Assembly: GCF_024171565.1 (NCBI RefSeq)
Contig: NZ_JALJZZ010000002.1
Coordinates: 248,001-312,000, forward strand
Reading direction: 5' to 3'
DNA: 64,000 bases
Origin: Okibacterium sp. HSC-33S16
GTDB lineage: Bacteria > Actinomycetota > Actinomycetes > Actinomycetales > Microbacteriaceae
Under the pieces are notes generated by a model. It was given only the letters and a program-made list of their open reading frames with translations, was not told the DNA's origin and ran no database searches. Positions 1 through 10,641 of this stretch are shown here, piece by piece. How positions within the stretch are numbered: the stretch's first letter is position 1; the number at the start of each line of letters is the position of its first letter. Position numbers and translations under genes: made by a program.

Positions 1-486
1 CCGGCCGGCGGGTGCACCGTGCAAGGCGGATCGCAATTGGCGGATGACGTCGCGAGCAGCGGCATCCGCTTCACCTTGATGAATTTCGCCGATGCAGAGA
101 ACCGGAGCAATGCCGTTGCGGAGGGCCGCCGTGGTTTTCGCCGCCACGATCTCCTCGGTCTCTGCGAAGATGCGTCGTCGTTCTGCGTGCCCGACTTCGA
201 CCACACCGACACCGAGCTCGGCGAGTTCGACTCCGCTGACCTCGCCGGTATACGCGCCGTTGTCGTCCCAGAACAGGTCTTGGGCTCCAACCACGACATC
301 GGTGCCGTCCAGGGTGTCGATCGCCGCGGGGATTGCGACAAAACTCGGGATGACGAAGAGTTCGACATCGCCGCTCTTCAGTGCTTCGCTGTCGCGAGCC
401 AGGTCAGCAATGCTCGAAAACCACTCCCGCGCGCGGGCGTACCCGAAGTACATCTTCAGGCTTACCCCGACGACGACGGGAGCCAT
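1..486 (-). CDS. Triose-phosphate isomerase family protein (EryH-like), 3' end missing
   Basis: The translation (162 codons, cut by the window edge) is a TIM-barrel isomerase. The N-terminal catalytic lysine is at residue 11 (VGVSLKMY), GAQD lies near residue 68, and the catalytic-histidine motif is VGHAERR at residues 99-105 with His100. Canonical enzymes read GHSERR; the Ala is typical of paralogues rather than of the glycolytic enzyme. The catalytic Glu region lies beyond the window. The start ATG shares one base with the rpiB stop (TGATG), so the two are translationally coupled. Next to RpiB and a DhaK-DhaL kinase, the likely role is isomerising a tetrulose phosphate (EryH/LerI type), by inference from known erythritol and threitol pathways. 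A glycolytic tpiA is less likely in this operon. Confidence 0.85.
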   Translation of the reverse strand, partial: MAPVVVGVSLKMYFGYARAREWFSSIADLARDSEALKSGDVELFVIPSFVAIPAAIDTLDGTDVVVGAQDLFWDDNGAYTGEVSGVELAELGVGVVEVGHAERRRIFAETEEIVAAKTTAALRNGIAPVLCIGEIHQGEADAAARDVIRQLRSALHGAPAGR

Positions 487-953
487 CAGCAGCTTCCGAA
501 CTCTTCGTACGCGTCGAGGACCGCAACCTTCTCGGCGCTCGCCGACGATTCGTCGAAACGGTAGGTGAGCCACTCGCGCACCAGGCGACGGGCAAGTTCA
601 ACACCGATCACGCGCTGACCCAACGCGAGCACCTGGGCGTTGTTGGACAGAACCAGCCGTTCGACGGAAAAGCTGTCGTGGGCGACGGATGCGCGGATGC
701 CTTTCACCTTGCCCGCTGCCATGGCGACGCCCATGCCGGTTCCGCAGATCAAGAGCCCGCGGTCCGCTTTGCCTGCAGCGATGGCCTCACCGACGGTAAC
801 GCCGACCTTGGGGTATGGGGTGTGTCCGTTCGCGTCGACGCCCACGTCGGTGACGCTTTCGACCAGATCGTGAGCGAGGAGGTCCTTCTTGAGGATCTCT
901 TTGTAATCGAAACCAGCGTCATCCGATCCGATGACGATGCGGAGCTTGTCCAT
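486..953 (-). CDS. rpiB: RpiB/LacA/LacB family sugar-phosphate isomerase (EryI-like)
   Basis: This is a 155-residue protein of usual RpiB length. It has the N-terminal GSDDAGFDYKE segment, ANGHTPYPKVG near residues 41-51, and the catalytic cysteine in CGTGMG at residue 70. The family interconverts aldose and ketose phosphates, classically ribose 5-P and ribulose 5-P. In erythritol operons a close paralogue, EryI, makes D-erythrose 4-phosphate. Its ATG overlaps the stop of the upstream kinase by one base (TAATG) and its own stop overlaps the next start, so three enzymes form one tightly coupled unit. The context favours an EryI-like role; housekeeping ribose-5-phosphate isomerase remains possible. 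Confidence 0.9.
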   Translation of the reverse strand: MDKLRIVIGSDDAGFDYKEILKKDLLAHDLVESVTDVGVDANGHTPYPKVGVTVGEAIAAGKADRGLLICGTGMGVAMAAGKVKGIRASVAHDSFSVERLVLSNNAQVLALGQRVIGVELARRLVREWLTYRFDESSASAEKVAVLDAYEEFGSC

Positions 954-2683
954 TAGTTGTCTCGTTTCTGTTCCGAAAGAACGATCGCGATGCGCTGCAC
1001 GATGAGCGCGAGGGAATGGGCGCCCGCGTCGGGCGTGCCGAGAGACTTCTCGGCATGCGGGCGCGCGCGGCCCATGAGGGGGAGGAGATCGGCCGTTGCG
1101 GCGGCGGCAGCGGTCGACGCGTTCGCGGCGGTGGCCCAGGCGTCCGCCAGCCGTGCTCCGGCAGCGACTTCGGTCGACAGGGTGTCGGCGAACGGCACCA
1201 GTGAATCCACCATGGTTTTGTCGCCGGGTACAGCGCCGAACTTCAGGACGCTGTCTTTAGCCGCGTGCACTCCGGCCACGACGGTTTCTCGAGTCGGCGC
1301 TGCGGTGTTGCCGAGTTCGGCGCCCACCGCGGTGAGGGCTGCGCCCCAGAGTGCACCCGAAGTGCCGCCGGCGCGGTCCGACCAGGCATCGGCGGCCAGG
1401 GTGAGGAGCGTCTGAGCGCCCGCGCCGCGGGTGAGGGCGTCGGCGGCTGCCGCTTGAGCGGCCTGCGCTCCACGGTTCATTCCGATGCCGTGGTCGCCGT
1501 CACCCGCGACGGCGTCGATGCGTCCGAGCTCGTCGGCGTTCTCGTTCACAACCGCGGCGATGGCCTCGATCACTTCAGCGGCGATTGCTGCCGCTGCCTT
1601 TGATTCCTCGCTGGCGTCGGGGATGTCGTCAATCGCGTCAGTGAGCTCGACGATCGGAGCCTGTTCCGCGGCAACGACAGAACCCTTGCGGTAAGCCGGA
1701 GTGTCGGCGGGAGCCCGCCAGAAGGTTTCAAGTTCGTCGTCCAGCCAGAAGAGGGTGAGCGAGGCGCCGGCCATGTCGAAGCTGGTCACGAGCTCGCCGA
1801 CCTCGGGGTCGACGACGGTCACTCCGGCCTCAGTGAGAAGCTCGGCGACCTTGCGGTAGACGACGAAGAGTTCTTCGTATTTCACGGACCCAAGGCCGTT
1901 GAGGATCAGCCCAACACGCTGGCCCTCTGCTGATTCCACTCCGTCGGGCAGTTCACCCAGGAGTGTGGAGACGAAGAGCTCTGCCAGGCCGTCGGCCGTG
2001 GGAATGTCGGTTTCGTCGATGCCCGGTTCGCCGTGAATGCCAATTCCGACGCCCATCCGGCCCTCCGGGACGGTGAAGAGCGGTTCGTCGGCACCGGGAA
2101 GAGTGCAGCCTGTGAACGCCACTCCGAAGGAGCGGGTGCGTTCGTTGGCGAGTGTCGCGACTCGCACAACATCGTCCAGCGAGTATCCGGCCTCGGCTGC
2201 CGCGGCGGCCGATTTGAAGACGGTGAGGTCACCCGCGATGCCTCGTCGTTTGTGCTTTTCGTCGACGGATGCACTGGCGATGTCGTCGGTGACAACGACG
2301 GTTCGGCACTCGATGCCATCGGCAGTTAGACGCTCTTGCGCCTGATTGAAGTGCAGGACGTCACCGGCGTAGTTGCCGTAGGTCAACAGGATGCCGCCAC
2401 CCAGGTGCGCGGCCGAACCAACCGAATACACCTGATGGGCCGACGGCGAAGCAAAGAGGTTGCCCATCGCCGCACCGTGAGCGAGGCCCTGGCCGACCAG
2501 TCCGCCGAAGGCGGGGTAGTGGCCCGAGCCGCCACCGGTCACGATGGCGACCGTGCCCGGTGTGGAAACGGTGCTTCGGATGACACCGCCTGTGACGCGA
2601 CGGACCTGCGACGCGTTGGCGGCGACGAATCCGTCGATCATTTCGTCAGCGAAAGCGACGGGATCATTGAACAGGCGAGTCAT
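953..2683 (-). CDS. DhaK-DhaL fusion, ATP-dependent dihydroxyacetone/erythrulose-type kinase
   Basis: This is a 576-residue single-chain kinase. The N-terminal DhaK domain has the phosphate loop GGGSGHYP at residues 50-57 and the substrate-binding histidine in GIGIHGEPG (His217), which forms a covalent hemiaminal with ketose substrates. The C-terminal DhaL domain (about 365-576) carries the metal and ATP motif GDGDHG at 394-399. ATP-using DAK enzymes of this layout phosphorylate dihydroxyacetone, and relatives named LerK/DerK phosphorylate L- or D-erythrulose. A Shine-Dalgarno GGAGA precedes the ATG. It sits between an MFS transporter and RpiB/TIM isomerases, which fits a tetrulose substrate: the isomerases would otherwise have no role in glycerone catabolism. 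The substrate is inferred, not shown. Confidence 0.85.
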   Translation of the reverse strand: MTRLFNDPVAFADEMIDGFVAANASQVRRVTGGVIRSTVSTPGTVAIVTGGGSGHYPAFGGLVGQGLAHGAAMGNLFASPSAHQVYSVGSAAHLGGGILLTYGNYAGDVLHFNQAQERLTADGIECRTVVVTDDIASASVDEKHKRRGIAGDLTVFKSAAAAAEAGYSLDDVVRVATLANERTRSFGVAFTGCTLPGADEPLFTVPEGRMGVGIGIHGEPGIDETDIPTADGLAELFVSTLLGELPDGVESAEGQRVGLILNGLGSVKYEELFVVYRKVAELLTEAGVTVVDPEVGELVTSFDMAGASLTLFWLDDELETFWRAPADTPAYRKGSVVAAEQAPIVELTDAIDDIPDASEESKAAAAIAAEVIEAIAAVVNENADELGRIDAVAGDGDHGIGMNRGAQAAQAAAADALTRGAGAQTLLTLAADAWSDRAGGTSGALWGAALTAVGAELGNTAAPTRETVVAGVHAAKDSVLKFGAVPGDKTMVDSLVPFADTLSTEVAAGARLADAWATAANASTAAAAATADLLPLMGRARPHAEKSLGTPDAGAHSLALIVQRIAIVLSEQKRDN

Positions 2684-2751: not shown

Positions 2752-4113
2752 CTACTGGGACAGCGCCTGAGCTTCGGTCTCATCGACCGCGCCGCGCTGG
2801 GTGCGGTTGGCCCGTGCCAGCAGCAGCATGATCACACCGGACACGGCCATGAAACCTCCGACAATGAACATCGGAATCTCAAAGTTTCCGGTCCAGTCGG
2901 CGACTGCTCCCGTGATGTACGGAGCGGAGAATCCGGCCAGGTTTCCGACGGTGTTGATCAGCGCGATACCTGCAGCCGCTGCGGCTCCGGTGAGGAACTG
3001 GGTCGGGAGAGTCCAGAAGTTGGGCAGCGCCGAGAAGATTGCCATGGCGGTGACCGCGATGATGGCGATCGTCGCGACGGGAGACCCGGAGAACAGCGCG
3101 AACGGGATGCTGAGCGCACCGACGAAGGCAGGGATCGCAATGTGCCACGTCTTCAAGCCGCGCTTTGTGGCATCCCGTGCCCAGAAGTGGAGTGCGATCG
3201 CAGCCGGGACGTACGGGATTGCGGTGATGAGTCCCTTCTGGAAGGTGTCGAACTCGGTACCGAACTGGGCCTGGAAACCCTCGATGATGGTCGGGAGGAA
3301 GAAACCAAGTGCGTAGAGGCCATAGATGAAGCCGAAGTAGATGAAGGACAGAGCCCAGACGCGCCCGCTCCCGAACGCGTCACGGATGCGACCGTGACCA
3401 CCGGTCTTCACCGTCTGTGCACGCTCGGTCTCGAGTGCGTTGGTCAGCCAGACCTTCTCATCGGCCGTGAGCCACTTGGCATCTGCGGGGCGGTCCTTGA
3501 GGTAGAACCAAGCGACGATTCCGATGATGATGGCGGGGATCGCGACACCCGCGAACATGAACCGCCAGCCCTCGAGGCCGAAGATTCCGTGCTGCTCGAT
3601 GAGGATCGCAGCGAGGGGGGCACCGATGACCGTTGTGAGCGGCTGTGCCAGGTAGAAGAGCGCGAGGATCTTTGAACGGTGTGCAGCGGGTACCCAGAGG
3701 CTCAGGAAGAGAATCGCACCCGGGAAGAACCCAGCTTCGGCGACACCGAGCAGGAACCGCAGGATCGCGAGGTGCTCGAAGCTACCCACCCAGGTGAAGA
3801 GCAGAGCGACGATTCCCCAGCTGACCATGATGCGCGCGAGCCACTTGCGTGCGCCGAATCGGTGCAGCGCGAGGTTCGAGGGCACCTCAAGCAGGATGTA
3901 GCCGATGAAGAACACACCGGAGGCGAAGCCGAACTGTGCGGCCGAGAGACCGAGGTCTTCATTCATGCCGTTCGGGGCGGCGAATCCGATCGCTGTGCGG
4001 TCGAGGTAGTTGATGAAGAACATCAATGCCACAAAAGGTACAAGTCGGAACGCGACTTTCCGGATGGCAGATTTTTCCACAGCTGACTGCGGTGTCGGTG
4101 TGGTTGAAGCCAC
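2752..4113 (-). CDS. MFS transporter, anion:cation symporter (ACS) family
   Basis: This is a 453-residue integral membrane protein of about 12 helices. The first helix region FVALMFFINYLDRTAIGFA is the signature of the ACS/phthalate-permease family (tartrate, galactonate and similar carboxylates). The start is set at GTG 4113 because AAGGAG lies seven bases upstream; the frame stays open further upstream but would run through the operator region. It heads the operon with the kinase and isomerases, divergent from the GntR gene. The family usually carries organic anions, which sits oddly with a neutral tetrose route, so a sugar acid or a neutral polyol is possible. The substrate is unknown. Confidence 0.87.
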   Translation of the reverse strand: MASTTPTPQSAVEKSAIRKVAFRLVPFVALMFFINYLDRTAIGFAAPNGMNEDLGLSAAQFGFASGVFFIGYILLEVPSNLALHRFGARKWLARIMVSWGIVALLFTWVGSFEHLAILRFLLGVAEAGFFPGAILFLSLWVPAAHRSKILALFYLAQPLTTVIGAPLAAILIEQHGIFGLEGWRFMFAGVAIPAIIIGIVAWFYLKDRPADAKWLTADEKVWLTNALETERAQTVKTGGHGRIRDAFGSGRVWALSFIYFGFIYGLYALGFFLPTIIEGFQAQFGTEFDTFQKGLITAIPYVPAAIALHFWARDATKRGLKTWHIAIPAFVGALSIPFALFSGSPVATIAIIAVTAMAIFSALPNFWTLPTQFLTGAAAAAGIALINTVGNLAGFSAPYITGAVADWTGNFEIPMFIVGGFMAVSGVIMLLLARANRTQRGAVDETEAQALSQ

Positions 4114-4179: not shown

Positions 4180-4208
4180 AGTATTCGCTAAAGGAGCCAT
4201 CCTGTCAA
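4180..4208 (-). promoter_or_regulatory. Sigma-70-type promoter of the MFS-kinase-isomerase operon
   Basis: Read on the minus strand, TTGACA (4208-4203) and AATACT (4185-4180) are separated by exactly 17 bases. The predicted leader to the GTG at 4113 is about 60 bases. The -35 box is embedded in the palindrome at 4204-4217, which implies repression by a regulator bound there. Confidence 0.75.
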
Positions 4209-4239
4209 CCGGTTGACCAAAATCAGTCAACCGGTCGAC
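4204..4239. promoter_or_regulatory. Two tandem 14-bp palindromic operators, likely for the GntR regulator
   Basis: GTCAACCGGTTGAC (4204-4217) is a perfect palindrome and GTCAACCGGTCGAC (4226-4239) a near-perfect one. Their centres are 22 bp apart, about two helical turns, so two dimers would bind the same DNA face. The first covers the -35 of the minus-strand operon; the second lies just upstream of the promoter for the GntR gene. A matching half (GTCAACCGGTT) recurs at 9619 before the ABC operon. Confidence 0.75.
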
Positions 4240-4273
4240 TCGTTTTTCCGCCTTTCTCTTGTAGCTTTGACCC

Positions 4274-5011
4274 ATGCCTGCATATCCGAACGACGCCTCT
4301 TCGGGGATCGCCGCCTCCATCGGCTCCCTCGCTGAGGGCACGCCTGTCTCTGCAGTGGCCAAGCGACTTCTGGAAATTTTCACGACGGGCAGCATCGAAG
4401 CTGGAACCCGTCTTCCGCCTGAACGGCAGCTGGCGTCGACGCTCGGCGTTGGCCGGTCGGCCGTCCGTGAAGCTTTAGCCGCGCTCGAAATCCTCGGTGT
4501 TGTCGATGTGCGGCCGGGGTCCGGAACGTACCTTCGGGGCGCCACCAGCGAGCTCCTTCCCCAGACCCTCAGTTGGGGTCTCATGCTTGGCGAACCACGC
4601 ACCCTCGAGCTCATCGAGGTTCGCGGGGCGCTGGAAATTTACGCCGCCCGGCTTGCCGCCTCCCGCATCACTGACGATGCCCTCGAACGCCTCGGTGCAC
4701 ACGTCGAGGACATGCGAGCAAACGCTGGGAACCTGGCGGCGTTTGTCGAGGCGGACCTTCGTTTCCATTCGGAGCTTGCCCGCAGCATCAACAACACCGT
4801 GCTCCTCGACCTGCTGCAAAGCATTCGATCCCTCCTGCGCGTGTGGGTGGACCGTGCTGTGCAGCAGCCCGAAGAAGCGGCTGCTGCCATCGAGGAACAC
4901 GCGGCGGTGTACGCAGCCATTGCGACTCGGGATCCCGATGCGGCAGCCTCGGCCATGGCCGTTCACATGAATACGGCGGGAGCTCGGCTCTCGCGGTCGG
5001 TCACCCCTTAG
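4274..5011 (+). CDS. FadR-subfamily GntR transcriptional regulator
   Basis: This is a 245-residue protein. The N-terminal winged helix spans about residues 25-95, with the signature SRLPPERQLA-like stretch (here TRLPPERQLASTLGVGRSAVREAL). The C-terminal all-helical FCD ligand domain spans about 100-235, with a metal-site-like D-x-x-FH (EADLRFHSELA). The -10-like TAGCTT ends exactly six bases before the ATG and no Shine-Dalgarno is seen, so the transcript is probably leaderless. It is divergent from the MFS-kinase operon and separated by two palindromes, so it most likely represses that operon and itself. The ligand is unknown; FCD regulators usually sense small carboxylates or sugar derivatives. 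Confidence 0.9.
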   Translation: MPAYPNDASSGIAASIGSLAEGTPVSAVAKRLLEIFTTGSIEAGTRLPPERQLASTLGVGRSAVREALAALEILGVVDVRPGSGTYLRGATSELLPQTLSWGLMLGEPRTLELIEVRGALEIYAARLAASRITDDALERLGAHVEDMRANAGNLAAFVEADLRFHSELARSINNTVLLDLLQSIRSLLRVWVDRAVQQPEEAAAAIEEHAAVYAAIATRDPDAAASAMAVHMNTAGARLSRSVTP

Positions 5012-5052
5012 GTCCCTTCCTTCCGCCGACGCTCGCATCGAGCGCCAACAGC

Positions 5053-5095
5053 AATCGGCGGCCCTGCCGAAGCAGGACCGCCGATTATTGTTTGT
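5053..5095. terminator. Strong hairpin terminator between convergent genes
   Basis: AATCGGCGG then CCTGC pairs with GCAGG then CCGCCGATT around a CGAA loop, giving 14 bp with one mismatch. It is followed on the plus strand by ATTGTTTG. It ends the GntR transcript and may also serve the minus-strand ABC operon, whose last gene stops at 5105. Confidence 0.8.
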
Positions 5096-5104
5096 GCGTG
5101 AGTT

Positions 5105-6097
<993 letters not shown>

Positions 6098-6122
6098 TTA
6101 CAGCCTTTCGTTTCTTGGTGTG

Positions 6123-6142
6123 CCGCGGTGCGAGCACCGCGG
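6123..6142 (-). other. Intercistronic hairpin between permease and binding-protein genes
   Basis: CCGCGGTG pairs perfectly with CACCGCGG around a CGAG loop, in the 66-base gap before the binding-protein gene. There is no T-tract, so it probably protects or pauses the mRNA and does not end it. The Shine-Dalgarno AAAGG of the binding-protein gene lies downstream of it. Confidence 0.55.
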
Positions 6143-6160
6143 AGGGGGGAGGGGGGAAAT

Positions 6161-7291
6161 CTAGGACGTGCTTGGGGTCGTCGTCGGTTCGGAGTGACTG
6201 CTCGCTGCGAGCGCGGCGTTTTTCGACCGCTTGATTCGCTGCTGAGCCTGGTCGAGCATGACGGCCAGAATGATGACGGCGCCCTTGATAGCGATCTGCC
6301 AGAACGTGGAAACGCCAACGATGACGAGGCCGTCGCTGAGGAACCCGATCACGAAGGCACCGATGAGCACCCCTCGCACATTTCCTCGACCACCGGTCAG
6401 CGCCGCACCACCGATGACCACGGCCGCGATGGCATTGAGCTCGAAGGATTCGCCCAATTGAGGTGCCGCGCTCGTCAATTCGGACGAGATGATGAGGCCT
6501 GTGGTCGCGGCGCAGAAACCGCTGATCATGTAGACCCGAAGCTTCACGCGGCGGACCGGGACGCCCGACAGCTCGGCGGCTCGTTCATTACCGCCGGTGG
6601 AGTACACCCAGCGACCGAACGGCGTGTTCTTGAGGACAAAGGCCGCGACGAGCGCGAAGACAACCATGATCCAAATCGCGGTGGGGATACCAAAGAGGCG
6701 CCCGCCGCCGATGATTCCGAACCCGGTATTGCCCAGCTCCGGGTCGCCGCCCAGGCGCGGATAGGTTGAGCCGTTCGATATCAATAGAGCAGCACCGCGT
6801 GCGACGTACAACATGCCCAAGGTGGCGATGAATGGCGCAACGCTGAATTTTGTTACGAGCAGCCCGTTGACGTAACCCACCAGGGTGCCGACGGCCAAAG
6901 AGCAAAGCACAACCACCCACACCGGCGGGTAGATGACGACACCAAATGCATCGATCTGCCAGCCCTGAAGCAGGACACCGGCGATCACTCCCGACAGACC
7001 GACGGTCGACCCGACGGACAGGTCGATGCCGCCCTTGAGGATGACGAACAACATGCCGATAGCCAGGATGGCGTTGTAGGCGACGTGCTTCGTCATCGTC
7101 AGGAGGTTGTTGAAGGTGAGGAAGGAGTCCGACAGCAACGCGAAGATAATGATCAGCACGATCAACGCGATGAAGGCCCGGCCCTCAAGCAGGATGCCGA
7201 GGTAGTCGATCTCCCGCTTGGCGGTTCCGCCTTTGTCCCCTGGGCCTCGGCCGTTCGTTGACGGGCGGGCGCCCGTAGTCGTTGCAGTCAC
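6161..7291 (-). CDS. rbsC: Ribose-type ABC transporter permease
   Basis: This is a 376-residue membrane protein with a polar N-terminus of about 30 residues followed by 8-10 hydrophobic segments. The family motif region GGIDLSVGSTVGLSGVIAG and the cytoplasmic EAA-like loop around FGRWVYSTGGNERAAELSGV are both present, as in RbsC/BPD_transp_2 proteins. It forms the channel of the importer as a homodimer. The start is GTG, overlapping the ATPase stop by four bases (GTGA), so it is translationally coupled to the ATPase. Confidence 0.9.
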   Translation of the reverse strand: MTATTTGARPSTNGRGPGDKGGTAKREIDYLGILLEGRAFIALIVLIIIFALLSDSFLTFNNLLTMTKHVAYNAILAIGMLFVILKGGIDLSVGSTVGLSGVIAGVLLQGWQIDAFGVVIYPPVWVVVLCSLAVGTLVGYVNGLLVTKFSVAPFIATLGMLYVARGAALLISNGSTYPRLGGDPELGNTGFGIIGGGRLFGIPTAIWIMVVFALVAAFVLKNTPFGRWVYSTGGNERAAELSGVPVRRVKLRVYMISGFCAATTGLIISSELTSAAPQLGESFELNAIAAVVIGGAALTGGRGNVRGVLIGAFVIGFLSDGLVIVGVSTFWQIAIKGAVIILAVMLDQAQQRIKRSKNAALAASSHSEPTTTPSTS

Positions 7292-8847
7292 TTTCCGAGT
7301 CCATTCTCTGGTTCCGCAGCTTCAGTTGATTCACCGGAGGCGACCATGAGGCCCTCGCGGTCGGTGTGTTTAGGGTTGAACTCTCCGACGATGCGGCCTT
7401 TCGACAGCACGATCACCCGGTTCGAGACGCCGAGGGCCTCGCCGACCTCCGAGGTAGCGAAGAGCACCCCGAGCCCTCGTTTGGCTTCACGGGCCATGAG
7501 TCCGAAGATCTCTGCCTTCGCTCCGACGTCGATGCCGCGCGAGGGCTCGTCGAGGAGGATGACGTCCGGTTCGGTCATGAGGATTTTCGAGATCACGACC
7601 TTTTGCTGGTTTCCGCCGGAGAGCGAAGAAATCGCGGCTGTGGGCCCGGAGGTCTTCACTCGCACGTCCTTCACGGCCTTGTCGATGCTCGTTCGTTCCT
7701 GCCGTCGGTTGAGGACGATTCCCTTCACGAAGGCGAGGAGGTTGGCGAGCGACGCATTCTCTCCGACCGACATCGTCTGCACGAGCCCGTCGCGCTGTCG
7801 ATCTTCGGGAACCAGCGCGAGGCCCAGTGCGATGCGCTCAGCGACCGATTCCTTCGAGAGCTTGCGTCCCTTGAGCCGGACTGTTCCGGACTGGATTGAT
7901 GTGCGGCCGGCGAGCGCCTCGAGCAGTTCGGTTCGTCCCGCTCCCATCAAGCCATAGAGACAAACGATCTCACCGGCACGAACCTCCAGCGAGACCTCGT
8001 CGATCGCGAGGCGAGCGGGATTTGACGGGTCCGCGATGACGACGTTCTCAAGTGACAGTACGGGTTCACCGAACTCCTCAAGGAGGTCGGGTGAGAGGTC
8101 ACCGACGTCGCGGCCCACCATGTTTGAAATCACCCAGCCGAGGTCGATTTCGTTGCGATCGCCGATGGCGACGAGGTCACCGTCTCGGAAAACGACGGCA
8201 TGGTCGGCAATCTCCAGCGCTTCTTCAAGGTGGTGCGAGATGTAAACGATCGCGACGTTCTCAGCGGTGAGTTCGCGGATGAGCTTGAAGAGAACCTCGA
8301 CCTCGCTGCCACTCAGGGCGGAGGTCGGCTCATCCATGATGAGCACCCGCGCATTGCCAGCGAGCGCTCGGGCGATCTCAACGATTTGTTGTTGTCCGAG
8401 GCGGAGATCGCCGACAAGGGTTTTGGGGTCGAGTCGCTCTTCCAGCCGTTCCATCAAACGCACGGTGGTCGCGTTCTCGGAGCTGTAGTCGATAAGTACC
8501 CCGCCGCGCGCCCTCTCGCGACCCATGTAGATGTTGTCGCGGACGTTGAGGTTAGGAGCGAGGCTCAGCTCTTGGTGGATGATGGCGATTCCGCGATCGG
8601 CTGCATCCACCGTATTGCGGAGTTGGAGCGGCTCACCGTCGAGTTCCAGCGTGCCCGATGTCGGTGTCTCGACACCGCTGAGAATCTTCATGAGCGTGGA
8701 CTTGCCCGCGCCGTTCTCACCGAAGAGGACTGTGACGGTGCCCTTGCGGATGGAGAAGTCGACGCCTTTGAGGGCTCGCGTCGCACCGTACGTCTTCGTG
8801 ATCCCAATGGCGCGCATCACCACATCGTCGGTTGTGGCCTCGGTCAC
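7288..8847 (-). CDS. rbsA: Ribose-type ABC transporter ATPase with two nucleotide-binding domains
   Basis: This is a 519-residue tandem ATPase. Domain 1 has Walker A GENGAGKST at 43-51, signature LRLGQQQ and Walker B VLIMDEPTSAL. Domain 2 has the degenerate Walker A GLMGAGRTE normal for this family, signature LSGGNQQK and Walker B VILLDEPSRGID. The degenerate second site is typical of RbsA/MglA/XylG and is not a defect. The GTG start overlaps the DUF2291 stop (GTGA). It powers import by the permease and binding protein of the same operon. Confidence 0.92.
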   Translation of the reverse strand: MTEATTDDVVMRAIGITKTYGATRALKGVDFSIRKGTVTVLFGENGAGKSTLMKILSGVETPTSGTLELDGEPLQLRNTVDAADRGIAIIHQELSLAPNLNVRDNIYMGRERARGGVLIDYSSENATTVRLMERLEERLDPKTLVGDLRLGQQQIVEIARALAGNARVLIMDEPTSALSGSEVEVLFKLIRELTAENVAIVYISHHLEEALEIADHAVVFRDGDLVAIGDRNEIDLGWVISNMVGRDVGDLSPDLLEEFGEPVLSLENVVIADPSNPARLAIDEVSLEVRAGEIVCLYGLMGAGRTELLEALAGRTSIQSGTVRLKGRKLSKESVAERIALGLALVPEDRQRDGLVQTMSVGENASLANLLAFVKGIVLNRRQERTSIDKAVKDVRVKTSGPTAAISSLSGGNQQKVVISKILMTEPDVILLDEPSRGIDVGAKAEIFGLMAREAKRGLGVLFATSEVGEALGVSNRVIVLSKGRIVGEFNPKHTDREGLMVASGESTEAAEPENGLGK

Positions 8848-9494
8848 TGTGTGACCTCAAACTCCACCGGTACAACGGAGACGAGCGCGGGATTCACCCG
8901 GGTAAACGCTCCGGTGACCGTGATGGTCTTTCCTTCGAGAGTCGCCGGGTCCACGTCTGACAGCACCTGGTCCTTGACCAGGGTGTTGAACTCGGTGGCG
9001 ACTTCCTGGAATTCGAGCTGGTTGGTGAAGTCATTGAACTTTACGGTGCCGGTCGCGTCACGAATGGCTGTCCCATTGATCGCTGGGCCGATCTGCACTT
9101 GAACAACGGTGCCCTCGGGTAGTCCCTCGATCGTGACGGGCAGAATCGAACCATTTGGGGCTCCAGCGATTCCAGTCAGAGTGACCGGGAAGGAGTACGC
9201 GCTCGACGATCCCGCCGAGTTGCCGAAGTCGGCCTCCTCCGCCCCGCCCGCGAGGTCGGTCAGAAGTGTGACCAGATCGACGGCGTTGTCCGTGATCGCC
9301 GGAACGATGTCGTCCTCGAAGTGCTCAGCCGCGTAGTCCTTGGGTTCGAACGCGCCGGCCTGGGATGCTTCGGCCGCCTGCTCCACCGAGAGCACCTTGG
9401 TGCTGGCGATCGCCGTTCCGACCACGACGAGTGCGATGACAGCTCCCGCGAGTCGAACGTAAAGACGGCGTCGAGGGGGTGGTGACAGGGACAT
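8844..9494 (-). CDS. DUF2291 family membrane-anchored protein, first gene of the ABC operon
   Basis: This is a 216-residue protein with one N-terminal membrane helix (about residues 12-31) and an extracytoplasmic body. The body has a repeated beta-rich pattern, and KTITVTGAFTRVNPALVSVVPVEF ends the protein. DUF2291 proteins are recurrent partners of ribose-type ABC importers and have no assigned biochemical role. AAAGGAG six bases before the ATG supports the start. Being first and coupled to the ATPase by a four-base overlap implies stoichiometric production with the importer. It may scaffold the complex or help capture ligand; neither is shown. Confidence 0.75.
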   Translation of the reverse strand: MSLSPPPRRRLYVRLAGAVIALVVVGTAIASTKVLSVEQAAEASQAGAFEPKDYAAEHFEDDIVPAITDNAVDLVTLLTDLAGGAEEADFGNSAGSSSAYSFPVTLTGIAGAPNGSILPVTIEGLPEGTVVQVQIGPAINGTAIRDATGTVKFNDFTNQLEFQEVATEFNTLVKDQVLSDVDPATLEGKTITVTGAFTRVNPALVSVVPVEFEVTQ

Positions 9495-9594
9495 CTACCG
9501 CTCCTTTGCGGGTTGGGCCCGTCCAACCGCGAAGCGAGACGGGTCTCGCATCGGTCGGGCGGTGCGTTCGGTCGATTACTCGACGGGCGTGCCC

Positions 9595-9633
9595 ATCCTG
9601 TACCACGGGCACGCTTTGGTCAACCGGTTTGTC
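9595..9633 (-). promoter_or_regulatory. Promoter of the ABC operon with overlapping GntR-type operator
   Basis: On the minus strand TTGACC (9623-9618) and CAGGAT (9600-9595) are 17 bases apart. The -35 is part of GTCAACCGGTTTGTC (9619-9633 on the plus strand), which shares its first 11 bases with the palindrome at 4204. The arrangement is the same as at the MFS-kinase promoter, so the same regulator probably controls both operons. Confidence 0.7.
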
Positions 9634-9643
9634 ACTTTTGCTC

Positions 9644-9658
9644 GTAACGATTCGTTAC
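9644..9658. promoter_or_regulatory. Perfect 15-bp palindrome upstream of the ABC operon
   Basis: GTAACGA and TCGTTAC flank a single central T. It lies about 21 bp upstream of the ABC-operon -35 and about 66 bp before the -10 of the SMP-30 gene. It is a second, unrelated operator candidate; the protein that binds it is not evident in the window. Confidence 0.5.
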
Positions 9659-9735: not shown

Positions 9736-10641
9736 ATGCCGGACCTCATCGACGATGCCAACAGCGACTCTGGCGCCCTCCTCACGGGCGGACTCGAGAA
9801 GCTCTGGACCGGCGGTGAATGGCTCGAAGGGCCACTCTGGCTGCCCCACTCGCAGTCGGTGCGGTTCAGCGACATCCCGAACAACCGCATCCTCGAGTTT
9901 GATCGCGAGAGCGGCGAGACCCAAGTTCACCGCACCGACGTCGAGTACACCAACGGCCGCATTCTCGATCTCGACGGCCGTGTCGTGCAGTGCAGCCACG
10001 GCCGCCGGGCGATGGAACGCGAAGTTGACGGCGTCGTTGAGGTGCTTGTCGATCGGTGGACAGGCGGACGTTTCAACTCCCCGAATGACGTGGTTGTGGC
10101 ATCCGATTCGACAATTTGGTTCACCGATCCGCCCTACGGAATCCAGCCGAGTGGGCGCGAAGGGCACCCGGGTGAGCAGGAATACGGCGGATGTTTCGTC
10201 TTTCGCCTCGATGAGGCCAGTGGCGTCGCCACTCCGGTGATCACCGACATGGTGCACCCCAACGGGCTCGCGTTCTCGCCCGACGAGTCCCTTCTCTATG
10301 TCGCCGACACCGGCGGTGATGAGGTTCGGCACATCCGCGTGTACGACGTGGCGACCGGCGAGGGCCGTGAGTTCGTGCGCACCGCTGGCACCCCCGACGG
10401 TTTCCGCGTCGACACGGCCGGTCGCGTCTGGACCTCGTCGTCAAAAGCCGTCGAGGTCTTCGCGCCTACTGGCGAGCTACTGCTGACCCTCCCCGTTCCC
10501 GAGGTCGTGTCGAACGTCTGCTTCGGCGGCCCCAATGGCACCGAGCTTTACCTCACTGCATCGACGAGCCTCTATCGCATTTCGACAACGGTGACGGATG
10601 CCACGTGGCGGCGAGCCCCACGTGGCGAGCGTGCAGTCTGA
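9736..10641 (+). CDS. SMP-30/gluconolactonase/LRE family protein
   Basis: This is a 301-residue six-bladed beta-propeller hydrolase. Expected metal ligands are visible: Glu31 in WLEGPLW, Asn in FNSPNDVVV, Asn in HPNGLAFS, and Asp in YVADTGGDEV. The family opens sugar lactones or acts on other cyclic esters using a divalent metal. TAGATT ends six bases before the ATG without a Shine-Dalgarno, so it is probably leaderless. It is divergent from the sugar ABC operon, which suggests a substrate produced from the imported sugar, such as an aldonolactone. No oxidoreductase lies next to it in the window. Confidence 0.88.
   Translation: MPDLIDDANSDSGALLTGGLEKLWTGGEWLEGPLWLPHSQSVRFSDIPNNRILEFDRESGETQVHRTDVEYTNGRILDLDGRVVQCSHGRRAMEREVDGVVEVLVDRWTGGRFNSPNDVVVASDSTIWFTDPPYGIQPSGREGHPGEQEYGGCFVFRLDEASGVATPVITDMVHPNGLAFSPDESLLYVADTGGDEVRHIRVYDVATGEGREFVRTAGTPDGFRVDTAGRVWTSSSKAVEVFAPTGELLLTLPVPEVVSNVCFGGPNGTELYLTASTSLYRISTTVTDATWRRAPRGERAV

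Follow-up and report, generated by a model that had tools for sequence, protein, structure and literature searches.

Our analyses support the view that a gene cluster of Okibacterium sp. HSC-33S16 is probably a regulon for the utilisation of D-apiose and D-apionate, predicted to be controlled by a local FadR-type GntR regulator. The cluster reaches into the left end of a 64,000-nucleotide stretch of contig NZ_JALJZZ010000002.1 (positions 248,001 to 312,000), hereafter the window, which begins at G000:C2:248001. Two operons are concerned, one coding for an MFS transporter, a fused DhaK-DhaL kinase (DhaKL), an RpiB-type isomerase and a TIM-family isomerase, and the other for a CUT2 ABC importer preceded by a DUF2291 gene. 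A preliminary description of this DNA had proposed that one palindromic operator joins both operons and the GntR gene in a single tetrose-type system with two transporters (MFS and CUT2). The shared operator receives strong comparative support, including from three genomes in which importer and gntR lie on separate contigs, and the single system with two transporters is supported as well; by sequence comparison, the operator link is wider than first reported. The description was thus right about the shared switch and probably wrong about the sugar.

A palindromic operator in the window and the genome

The palindrome GTCAACCGGTTGAC is perfect (no mismatch) at 4204..4217, where it overlaps the -35 element of the MFS operon, and a second copy with one mismatch lies at 4226..4239 on the gntR side. 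A third site, at 9619..9632 between the DUF2291-CUT2 operon and a divergent SMP-30-like gene, has one perfect arm and three mismatches and opens with the exact 11-mer GTCAACCGGTT (9619-9629). All three were present as previously claimed, and those at 4204 and 9619 have counterparts in relatives. Within the window, GTCAACCGGTTGAC was matched 13 times at up to three mismatches, compared with 3.8 expected, and the 11-mer three times, compared with 0.03 expected, two of the three being both strands of the 4204 palindrome. The genome-wide search proposed as a check in the preliminary description located eight matches to the 11-mer at seven places in 3.23 Mb (one match for the reversed pattern), three of these places belonging to the cluster and one of the three lying left of the window. 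There, in the stretch L005, an overlapping operator-like pair containing the exact 11-mer (L005:4981-5002, three mismatches each) separates a GH78 rhamnosidase gene from a nucleoside-hydrolase-like (NH) gene.

The remaining four places, with gene names assigned by eye from the translations, lie upstream of a sugar-phosphate-isomerase-like gene, between sugar isomerase and uronate isomerase genes, near an aldose-epimerase-like gene and within a hisD-like gene. Operator-like sites with one mismatch, at G000:C1:335174, C1:346085 and C4:135949 (L002, L003 and L242), adjoin sugar-phosphate isomerase, uronate isomerase and aldose-epimerase-like genes.

The operator had been described as occupying the -35 element at the same position in both operons. 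A promoter scan identified TTGACA-17-AATACT on the minus strand at 4180..4208, its -35 element overlapped by the 4204 site. At 9619 the scanner found no promoter, a -35-like TTGACC being the only trace seen by eye, and the statement therefore holds for the first operon only. Likewise, the GntR gene (4274..5011) does not lie between the first two sites, as had been stated, but to the right of both, between the two operons.

Recurrence of the operator among relatives

A total of 199 family genomes were searched with the GntR protein, and the stretches surrounding its 50 best relatives, itself excluded, were analysed together with two side stretches of genome G106. These 52 stretches (934,722 bases) contain 67 sites with at most two mismatches, compared with one for the reversed control. 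Seven of the 50 relatives (L096, L098, L104, L107, L108, L110 and L111) were set apart for having no ApnL-, ApnO- or OiaC-like genes; among the other 43, such genes occur in 42, and one on a short contig (L090) is limited to the genes for MFS and DhaKL. A site was scored if it had at most three mismatches and lay within about 320 bp before a gene, gene starts being estimated from tblastn. All 43 relatives have a site before at least one pathway gene, whereas five control patterns gave 8, 4, 4, 3 and 2 of 43. The site precedes the MFS gene in 28/28 cases (reversed control 2), gntR in 37/43 (4), the SDR gene in 16/24 (2), the DUF2291 gene in 4/5 (0) and the SMP-30 gene in 2/2 (0). Lower frequencies were obtained for DhaKL (5/33; reversed control 4), OiaC (9/41; 0) and ApnL (4/25; 3), genes that are mostly internal to operons in the gene maps of the relatives. 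The AACCGGTT core is invariant in 37/37 gntR sites, and their flanks tend to lengthen the palindrome, with an A four bases out in 33/37 on one side and a T in 28/37 on the other. The recognition stretch of the GntR protein, GRSAVREAL, is intact in 40/43 relatives, with one change each in L084, L090 and L109.

The same association was found at the importer. Screening of the family genomes yielded 26 DUF2291 matches in 25 of the 199, two of which (L029 and L030) were too weak to be taken as clear homologues, and the 800 bp upstream were examined. A site with at most three mismatches lies 91-240 bp before the matched start in 8/10 homologues with at least 55% identity and in 0/14 below that value (Fisher p 6e-5). 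When homologues with at least 50% identity were instead split by pathway, the proportions were 8/9 versus 0/2, small numbers for which Fisher p is 0.055. Importer and gntR lie on separate contigs in G187, G134 and G116. As for the two exceptions, G132 lacks a GntR orthologue (best E 1.3e-16), and its importer adjoins genes for a transketolase and an isomerase, while in G077 the importer follows an SDR-ApnL pair whose own three-mismatch site lies about 60 bp upstream. In the lower-identity group, G048 has a transketolase gene near an importer without a site, and several genomes have the GntR and pathway genes together with a remote DUF2291 gene lacking one.

The importer family was also followed in named organisms, where a genome scan with the CUT2 substrate-binding protein (SBP) provided the best 80 of 181 relatives, at least six of these loci duplicating loci of the family-genome sample. 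Among these best 80, oxidative apiose genes (ApnL, OiaC or OiaX) occur at 25 loci and the split transketolase AptA+AptB at 44, two of which also have oxidative genes; two further loci have the isomerase alone and 11 have no such genes within the flank. Fifteen of the 80 are presumably Microbacteriaceae, an assignment made from titles and taxonomy, and in 11 of these 15 DUF2291 is immediately preceded by a site with at most two mismatches. Among the other four, L135 has a three-mismatch site there (as does L007), L146 and L141 have the importer after ApnO within a large operon, the L141 stretch being without a site, and L145 (Cryobacterium) has no site and carries the transketolase set. No site with at most two mismatches precedes DUF2291 at any of the 41 loci with transketolase and isomerase, and at L193, one of those with the isomerase alone, GTCAACCCGTTGAG is found on the DUF2291 side, the core being absent. 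Kineococcus rubinsiae (L176) combines GntR, ApnL, SDR and ApnO genes with a perfect site before a remoter DUF2291 gene (41% identity). Judged from these neighbourhoods, one importer family is shared between two catabolic routes, and the operator is seen beside one of them. We also observed that at L145 and L233 close relatives of the importer accompany the transketolase route for apiose, with no operator before DUF2291.

Gene content, predicted pathway and alternative explanations

The earlier gene calls proved correct. On the minus strand, the MFS transporter (2752..4113, with a GTG start assigned by eye) is a candidate D-apionate importer whose closest family is the D-galactonate transporter subfamily (271 bits, below the cut-off of 395), and family matches identify DhaKL (953..2683) as a candidate LerK-like L-erythrulose 1-kinase, followed by the RpiB-type isomerase (486..953) and the TIM-family gene (1..573), a candidate L-erythrulose-1-phosphate isomerase that extends past the left window end (whole gene L005:9716-10573). 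A DhaKL-type kinase and isomerases of the TIM and RpiB types, the families of the LerK-LerI-DerI set, occur together here. The candidate repressor (4274..5011, plus strand) has a GntR winged helix-turn-helix domain (60.7 bits) and an FCD domain (100.9 bits), both above cut-off, and none of the NCBIfam models reached its own cut-off for this protein. The importer operon, on the minus strand, comprises DUF2291 (8844..9494, its first gene), a double ATPase (7288..8847), a permease (6161..7291) and the SBP (5105..6094), a relative of Rhizobium etli RHE_PF00037 (5ibq, 4ry0); matches to Peripla_BP_4, BPD_transp_2 and the double ATPase all identify a CUT2 ABC importer. Divergent from it, on the plus strand, is the SMP-30/gluconolactonase-like gene (9736..10641), a candidate apionolactonase whose homologues in L092 and L093 also have an upstream site.

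Left of the window, the MFS-DhaKL-RpiB-TIM operon continues into a xylose-isomerase-like TIM-barrel gene (OiaC-like), a type that adjoins ApnO in relatives, and then into an ApnO-like gene with a PGDH_C domain. The product of the latter matches 5t57, which we take to be ApnO, at E 4e-65 and shares 41% identity with one protein encoded at the R. etli locus, and no ApnO model was matched. Beyond it lie the GH78 gene on the opposite strand (L005:5101-8007) and, on the operon strand again, the NH gene (L005:3902-4942, an IU_nuc_hydro match), a gene for a 616-residue ApnL-like protein and an SDR gene, and the stretch closes with a TetR gene on the opposite strand (L005:659-1264). The ApnL-like protein matches model NF049900 at E 1.4e-62 over most of its length and is 28% identical to the R. 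etli protein that passes this model. The SDR is the only one found in the cluster, where no tetritol dehydrogenase was recognised, other dehydrogenase families not having been searched genome-wide. OiaX had no match in this genome (G000), and among 100 family genomes searched 10 had matches of up to 442 bits, none above the cut-off of 700. An OiaX branch was dropped on this ground, and a direct decarboxylase (presumably OiaC) followed by the kinase and isomerases is the branch consistent with it.

The company of the importer elsewhere points to apiose. By sequence, the nearest solved relatives of the SBP, whose predicted model has a mean pLDDT of 80, are 5ibq (E 3e-106) and 4ry0 (about 1e-106). 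R. etli CIAT 652 keeps a homologous importer (SBP, DUF2291) beside OiaX (785 bits, cut-off 700), DerI (255, cut-off 240), ApnL (1064, cut-off 750), DhaK, DhaL and TIM genes, and an OiaK-like kinase there falls below its cut-off (467, cut-off 700). Pocket motifs, picked from what we take to be the ribose contacts of the Escherichia coli protein, are nearly identical throughout, NWSQ being common to the window SBP and R. etli, and NWDQ being present in most of the transketolase group and at a few apiose-oxidative loci; the pocket alone therefore cannot separate apiose from ribose. The apiose cluster of E. coli SE15 also has a CUT2 importer with DUF2291. Its SBP is only 40% identical and its pocket letters differ, which supports the CUT2-DUF2291 association and not the ligand. 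Growth on D-apiose of E. coli strains with the aptA, aptB, aplK cluster, and a role of aptA/aptB in the D-apiose route, are described in passages of PMC13001218 that name SE15. Apiose itself, a branched sugar that occurs in many plant glycosides and in the rhamnogalacturonan II of plant cell walls, is treated in parts of PMC11747546, which list apionolactonase, D-apiose dehydrogenase, apionate oxidoisomerase and the OiaK/OiaX steps with EC numbers and report growth on D-apiose.

The sequences show the gene order, the recurrence of the operator and the genes that accompany it, and the binding and enzyme steps, the substrate and the inducer we infer as follows. The GntR protein would bind palindromes with the AACCGGTT core and repress as long as neither a pathway sugar acid nor erythrulose is available; repression over the -35 element is the simplest reading of the 4204 site, and release by a pathway sugar acid is suggested by the FCD domain. 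The repressed units would be MFS-DhaKL-RpiB-TIM-OiaC-ApnO, gntR itself, DUF2291-ATPase-permease-SBP with the divergent SMP-30 lactonase, and NH-ApnL-SDR, perhaps with the divergent GH78 gene. The enzyme families suggest a chain from apiose to erythrose 4-phosphate, in which the CUT2 system would import D-apiose and the MFS transporter probably D-apionate, the SDR would convert apiose to the lactone, ApnL or SMP-30 would convert the lactone to apionate, ApnO would yield 3-oxo-isoapionate and OiaC would decarboxylate it to L-erythrulose, from which, once it is phosphorylated by DhaKL, the TIM- and RpiB-type isomerases would form erythrose 4-phosphate.

Several observations weigh against a D-apiose regulon of this kind. 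The ApnL-like protein reaches 212 bits where its model requires 750, the OiaC-like gene had no NCBIfam match at E 0.001 and is only presumed to be the 3-oxo-isoapionate decarboxylase, and the SDR differs from the Gfo/Idh type at the R. etli locus. RpiB exceeds the ribose-5-phosphate isomerase cut-off (184 versus 168.2 bits) and not that of DerI, and some genomes that have this GntR (G040, G057 and G068) contain OiaX-like genes below cut-off. Of the solved SBP relatives, 5ibq is presumably a D-apiose complex and 4ry0 carries the title of a ribose transporter. At the level of the operator, three of the six relatives without a site at gntR come from one genus, only 2/7 GntR relatives without pathway genes have a site (at most three mismatches), and in G148 (L084) a remote CUT2 operon (DUF2291 43% identical) adjoins pathway genes without one.

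The preliminary description had pointed to a tetrose-type system. In such a tetrose or tetritol regulon, imported erythritol, threitol or erythrulose would be converted to erythrose 4-phosphate, as in Mycobacterium smegmatis. DhaKL, TIM and RpiB indeed match the LerK, LerI and DerI steps described in passages of PMC10733421, and the SDR matches the GolD/DthD model below threshold (155 bits, with a cut-off of 286). Left unexplained are the ApnO-, OiaC- and ApnL-like genes under the same operator, since the first operon runs into OiaC- and ApnO-like genes and the extra operator pair precedes NH-ApnL-SDR, and also the SBP family, whose members in other phyla are neighbours of recognised D-apiose genes. 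The tetrose reading was dropped for these three genes and we consider it very unlikely; because the kinase and isomerases would follow a decarboxylation step, L-erythrulose would be an intermediate and not the nutrient. Ribose stays in consideration because the title of 4ry0 calls RHE_PF00037 a ribose transporter SBP. The CUT2 system would then take up ribose released by the NH-like protein, and in keeping with this the top NCBIfam match of the SBP is RbsB (below cut-off), an IU_nuc_hydro gene is in the cluster, and a PfkB/ribokinase-like gene lies near the importer in L173. Such a ribose or nucleoside system is nonetheless unlikely, as no ribokinase was found among the scanned genes of this cluster, ApnL, ApnO and OiaC are not ribose enzymes, and the NH protein, while keeping its Asp cluster, has Gly at what we take to be the position of the catalytic His of inosine-uridine hydrolases.

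The operator might also be read by another regulator, e.g. of the LacI type, with the GntR protein a bystander. The core occurs elsewhere at uronate and sugar isomerase genes, one place adjoining the end of an apparent LacI-type regulator (by eye), so another regulator could use it; AACCGGTT presumably resembles LacI-type operators, and gntR has no site in 6/43 relatives. However, 37/43 do have one at the GntR gene, GRSAVREAL is unchanged in 40/43, and G132, with no GntR orthologue, has an importer without a site, so that we regard a bystander role as improbable and retain the GntR protein as the candidate repressor of the apiose genes.

The nucleoside-hydrolase-like gene and known systems

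The NH protein is only remotely related to solved nucleoside hydrolases (best E 4e-8); it retains the Asp-rich motif and EYN, and a Gly precedes the late Asp. Relatives with at least 52% identity occur in 20/199 family genomes, all of them among the 50 that we credit with an apiose route (the GntR set in 44, a close AptB in seven and both in one). Treating the genomes as independent, which is not the case, gives p 3e-14. Among fetched stretches, NH lies within about 10 kb of apiose genes in 7/20 and not in 13/20, and among the best 80 named loci it is near importer or apiose genes in L149, L172, L173, L177, L181 and L203. No operator with at most two mismatches precedes NH at any of the 20 NH loci of 3.9-4.0 kb, this genome included, and none was seen in the other genomes. 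Tentatively, NH may be a new kind of apiosidase, a nucleoside-hydrolase fold cutting apiofuranose from plant glycosides instead of ribose from nucleosides and feeding two D-apiose routes, a proposal that we hold to be doubtful.

Other genes recur in this neighbourhood. Near similar clusters there is a second NH paralogue, whose Asp motif differs (NTDAKNEADD type; L149:13815-14687, L219:5114-6013, L099, L093 and L169), and genes for GH78 rhamnosidases are repeatedly found close to NH or to apiose genes (L073, L085, L113, L221 and L225-L229). TetR relatives recur near NH (L216-L218, L220-L222, L224 and L230-L232), often with two ABC ATPase genes further on; the TetR and ABC ATPase genes are possibly a separate module importing apiose glycosides.

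These results predict an apiose regulon in Microbacteriaceae that can be tested directly and whose operator is named, suggest what may be carried by importers whose present annotation is ribose transporter, and put forward NH as a candidate for the preceding step, the release of apiose from glycosides. The kind of pathway is already known. In the openly licensed literature we found no description of the regulon, the operator or the variant enzymes, which is weak evidence of absence in print, and searches there for apiose with GntR, with nucleoside hydrolase or with ABC transporter/solute binding protein, or for apulose, found none.

Oxidative D-apiose/D-apionate catabolism was reportedly described by Carter et al. 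in Nat Chem Biol (14:696) in 2018. Like that system at the R. etli CIAT 652 locus, the cluster has genes resembling those for ApnL and ApnO, isomerases of the erythrulose-phosphate type and a DUF2291-associated CUT2 importer. It differs in that an SDR replaces the Gfo/Idh-type oxidoreductase, ApnL is divergent and joined by an SMP-30 protein, an OiaC-like TIM barrel is found with no OiaX match, an MFS transporter is added, DhaK and DhaL are fused, and an operator recurs at the GntR gene. With the transketolase route (aptA/aptB/aplK/apsI, as given in parts of PMC13001218) it has in common the SBP-CUT2 family found beside AptA+AptB, whereas this genome has no AptB match at E 1e-60 and the transketolase and isomerase loci have no site before DUF2291. 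The tetritol pathway, as far as described in passages of PMC10733421 and PMC12780249, has the same kinase and two isomerases leading to erythrose 4-phosphate; here these would act after decarboxylation, on erythrulose formed as an intermediate. Finally, the AACCGGTT core and the lack of an NCBIfam model above cut-off set the regulator apart from FadR/FCD GntR repressors of the NanR, LldR and PdhR types, with which it shares the GntR and FCD domains and a palindrome at the -35 element of a divergent operon.

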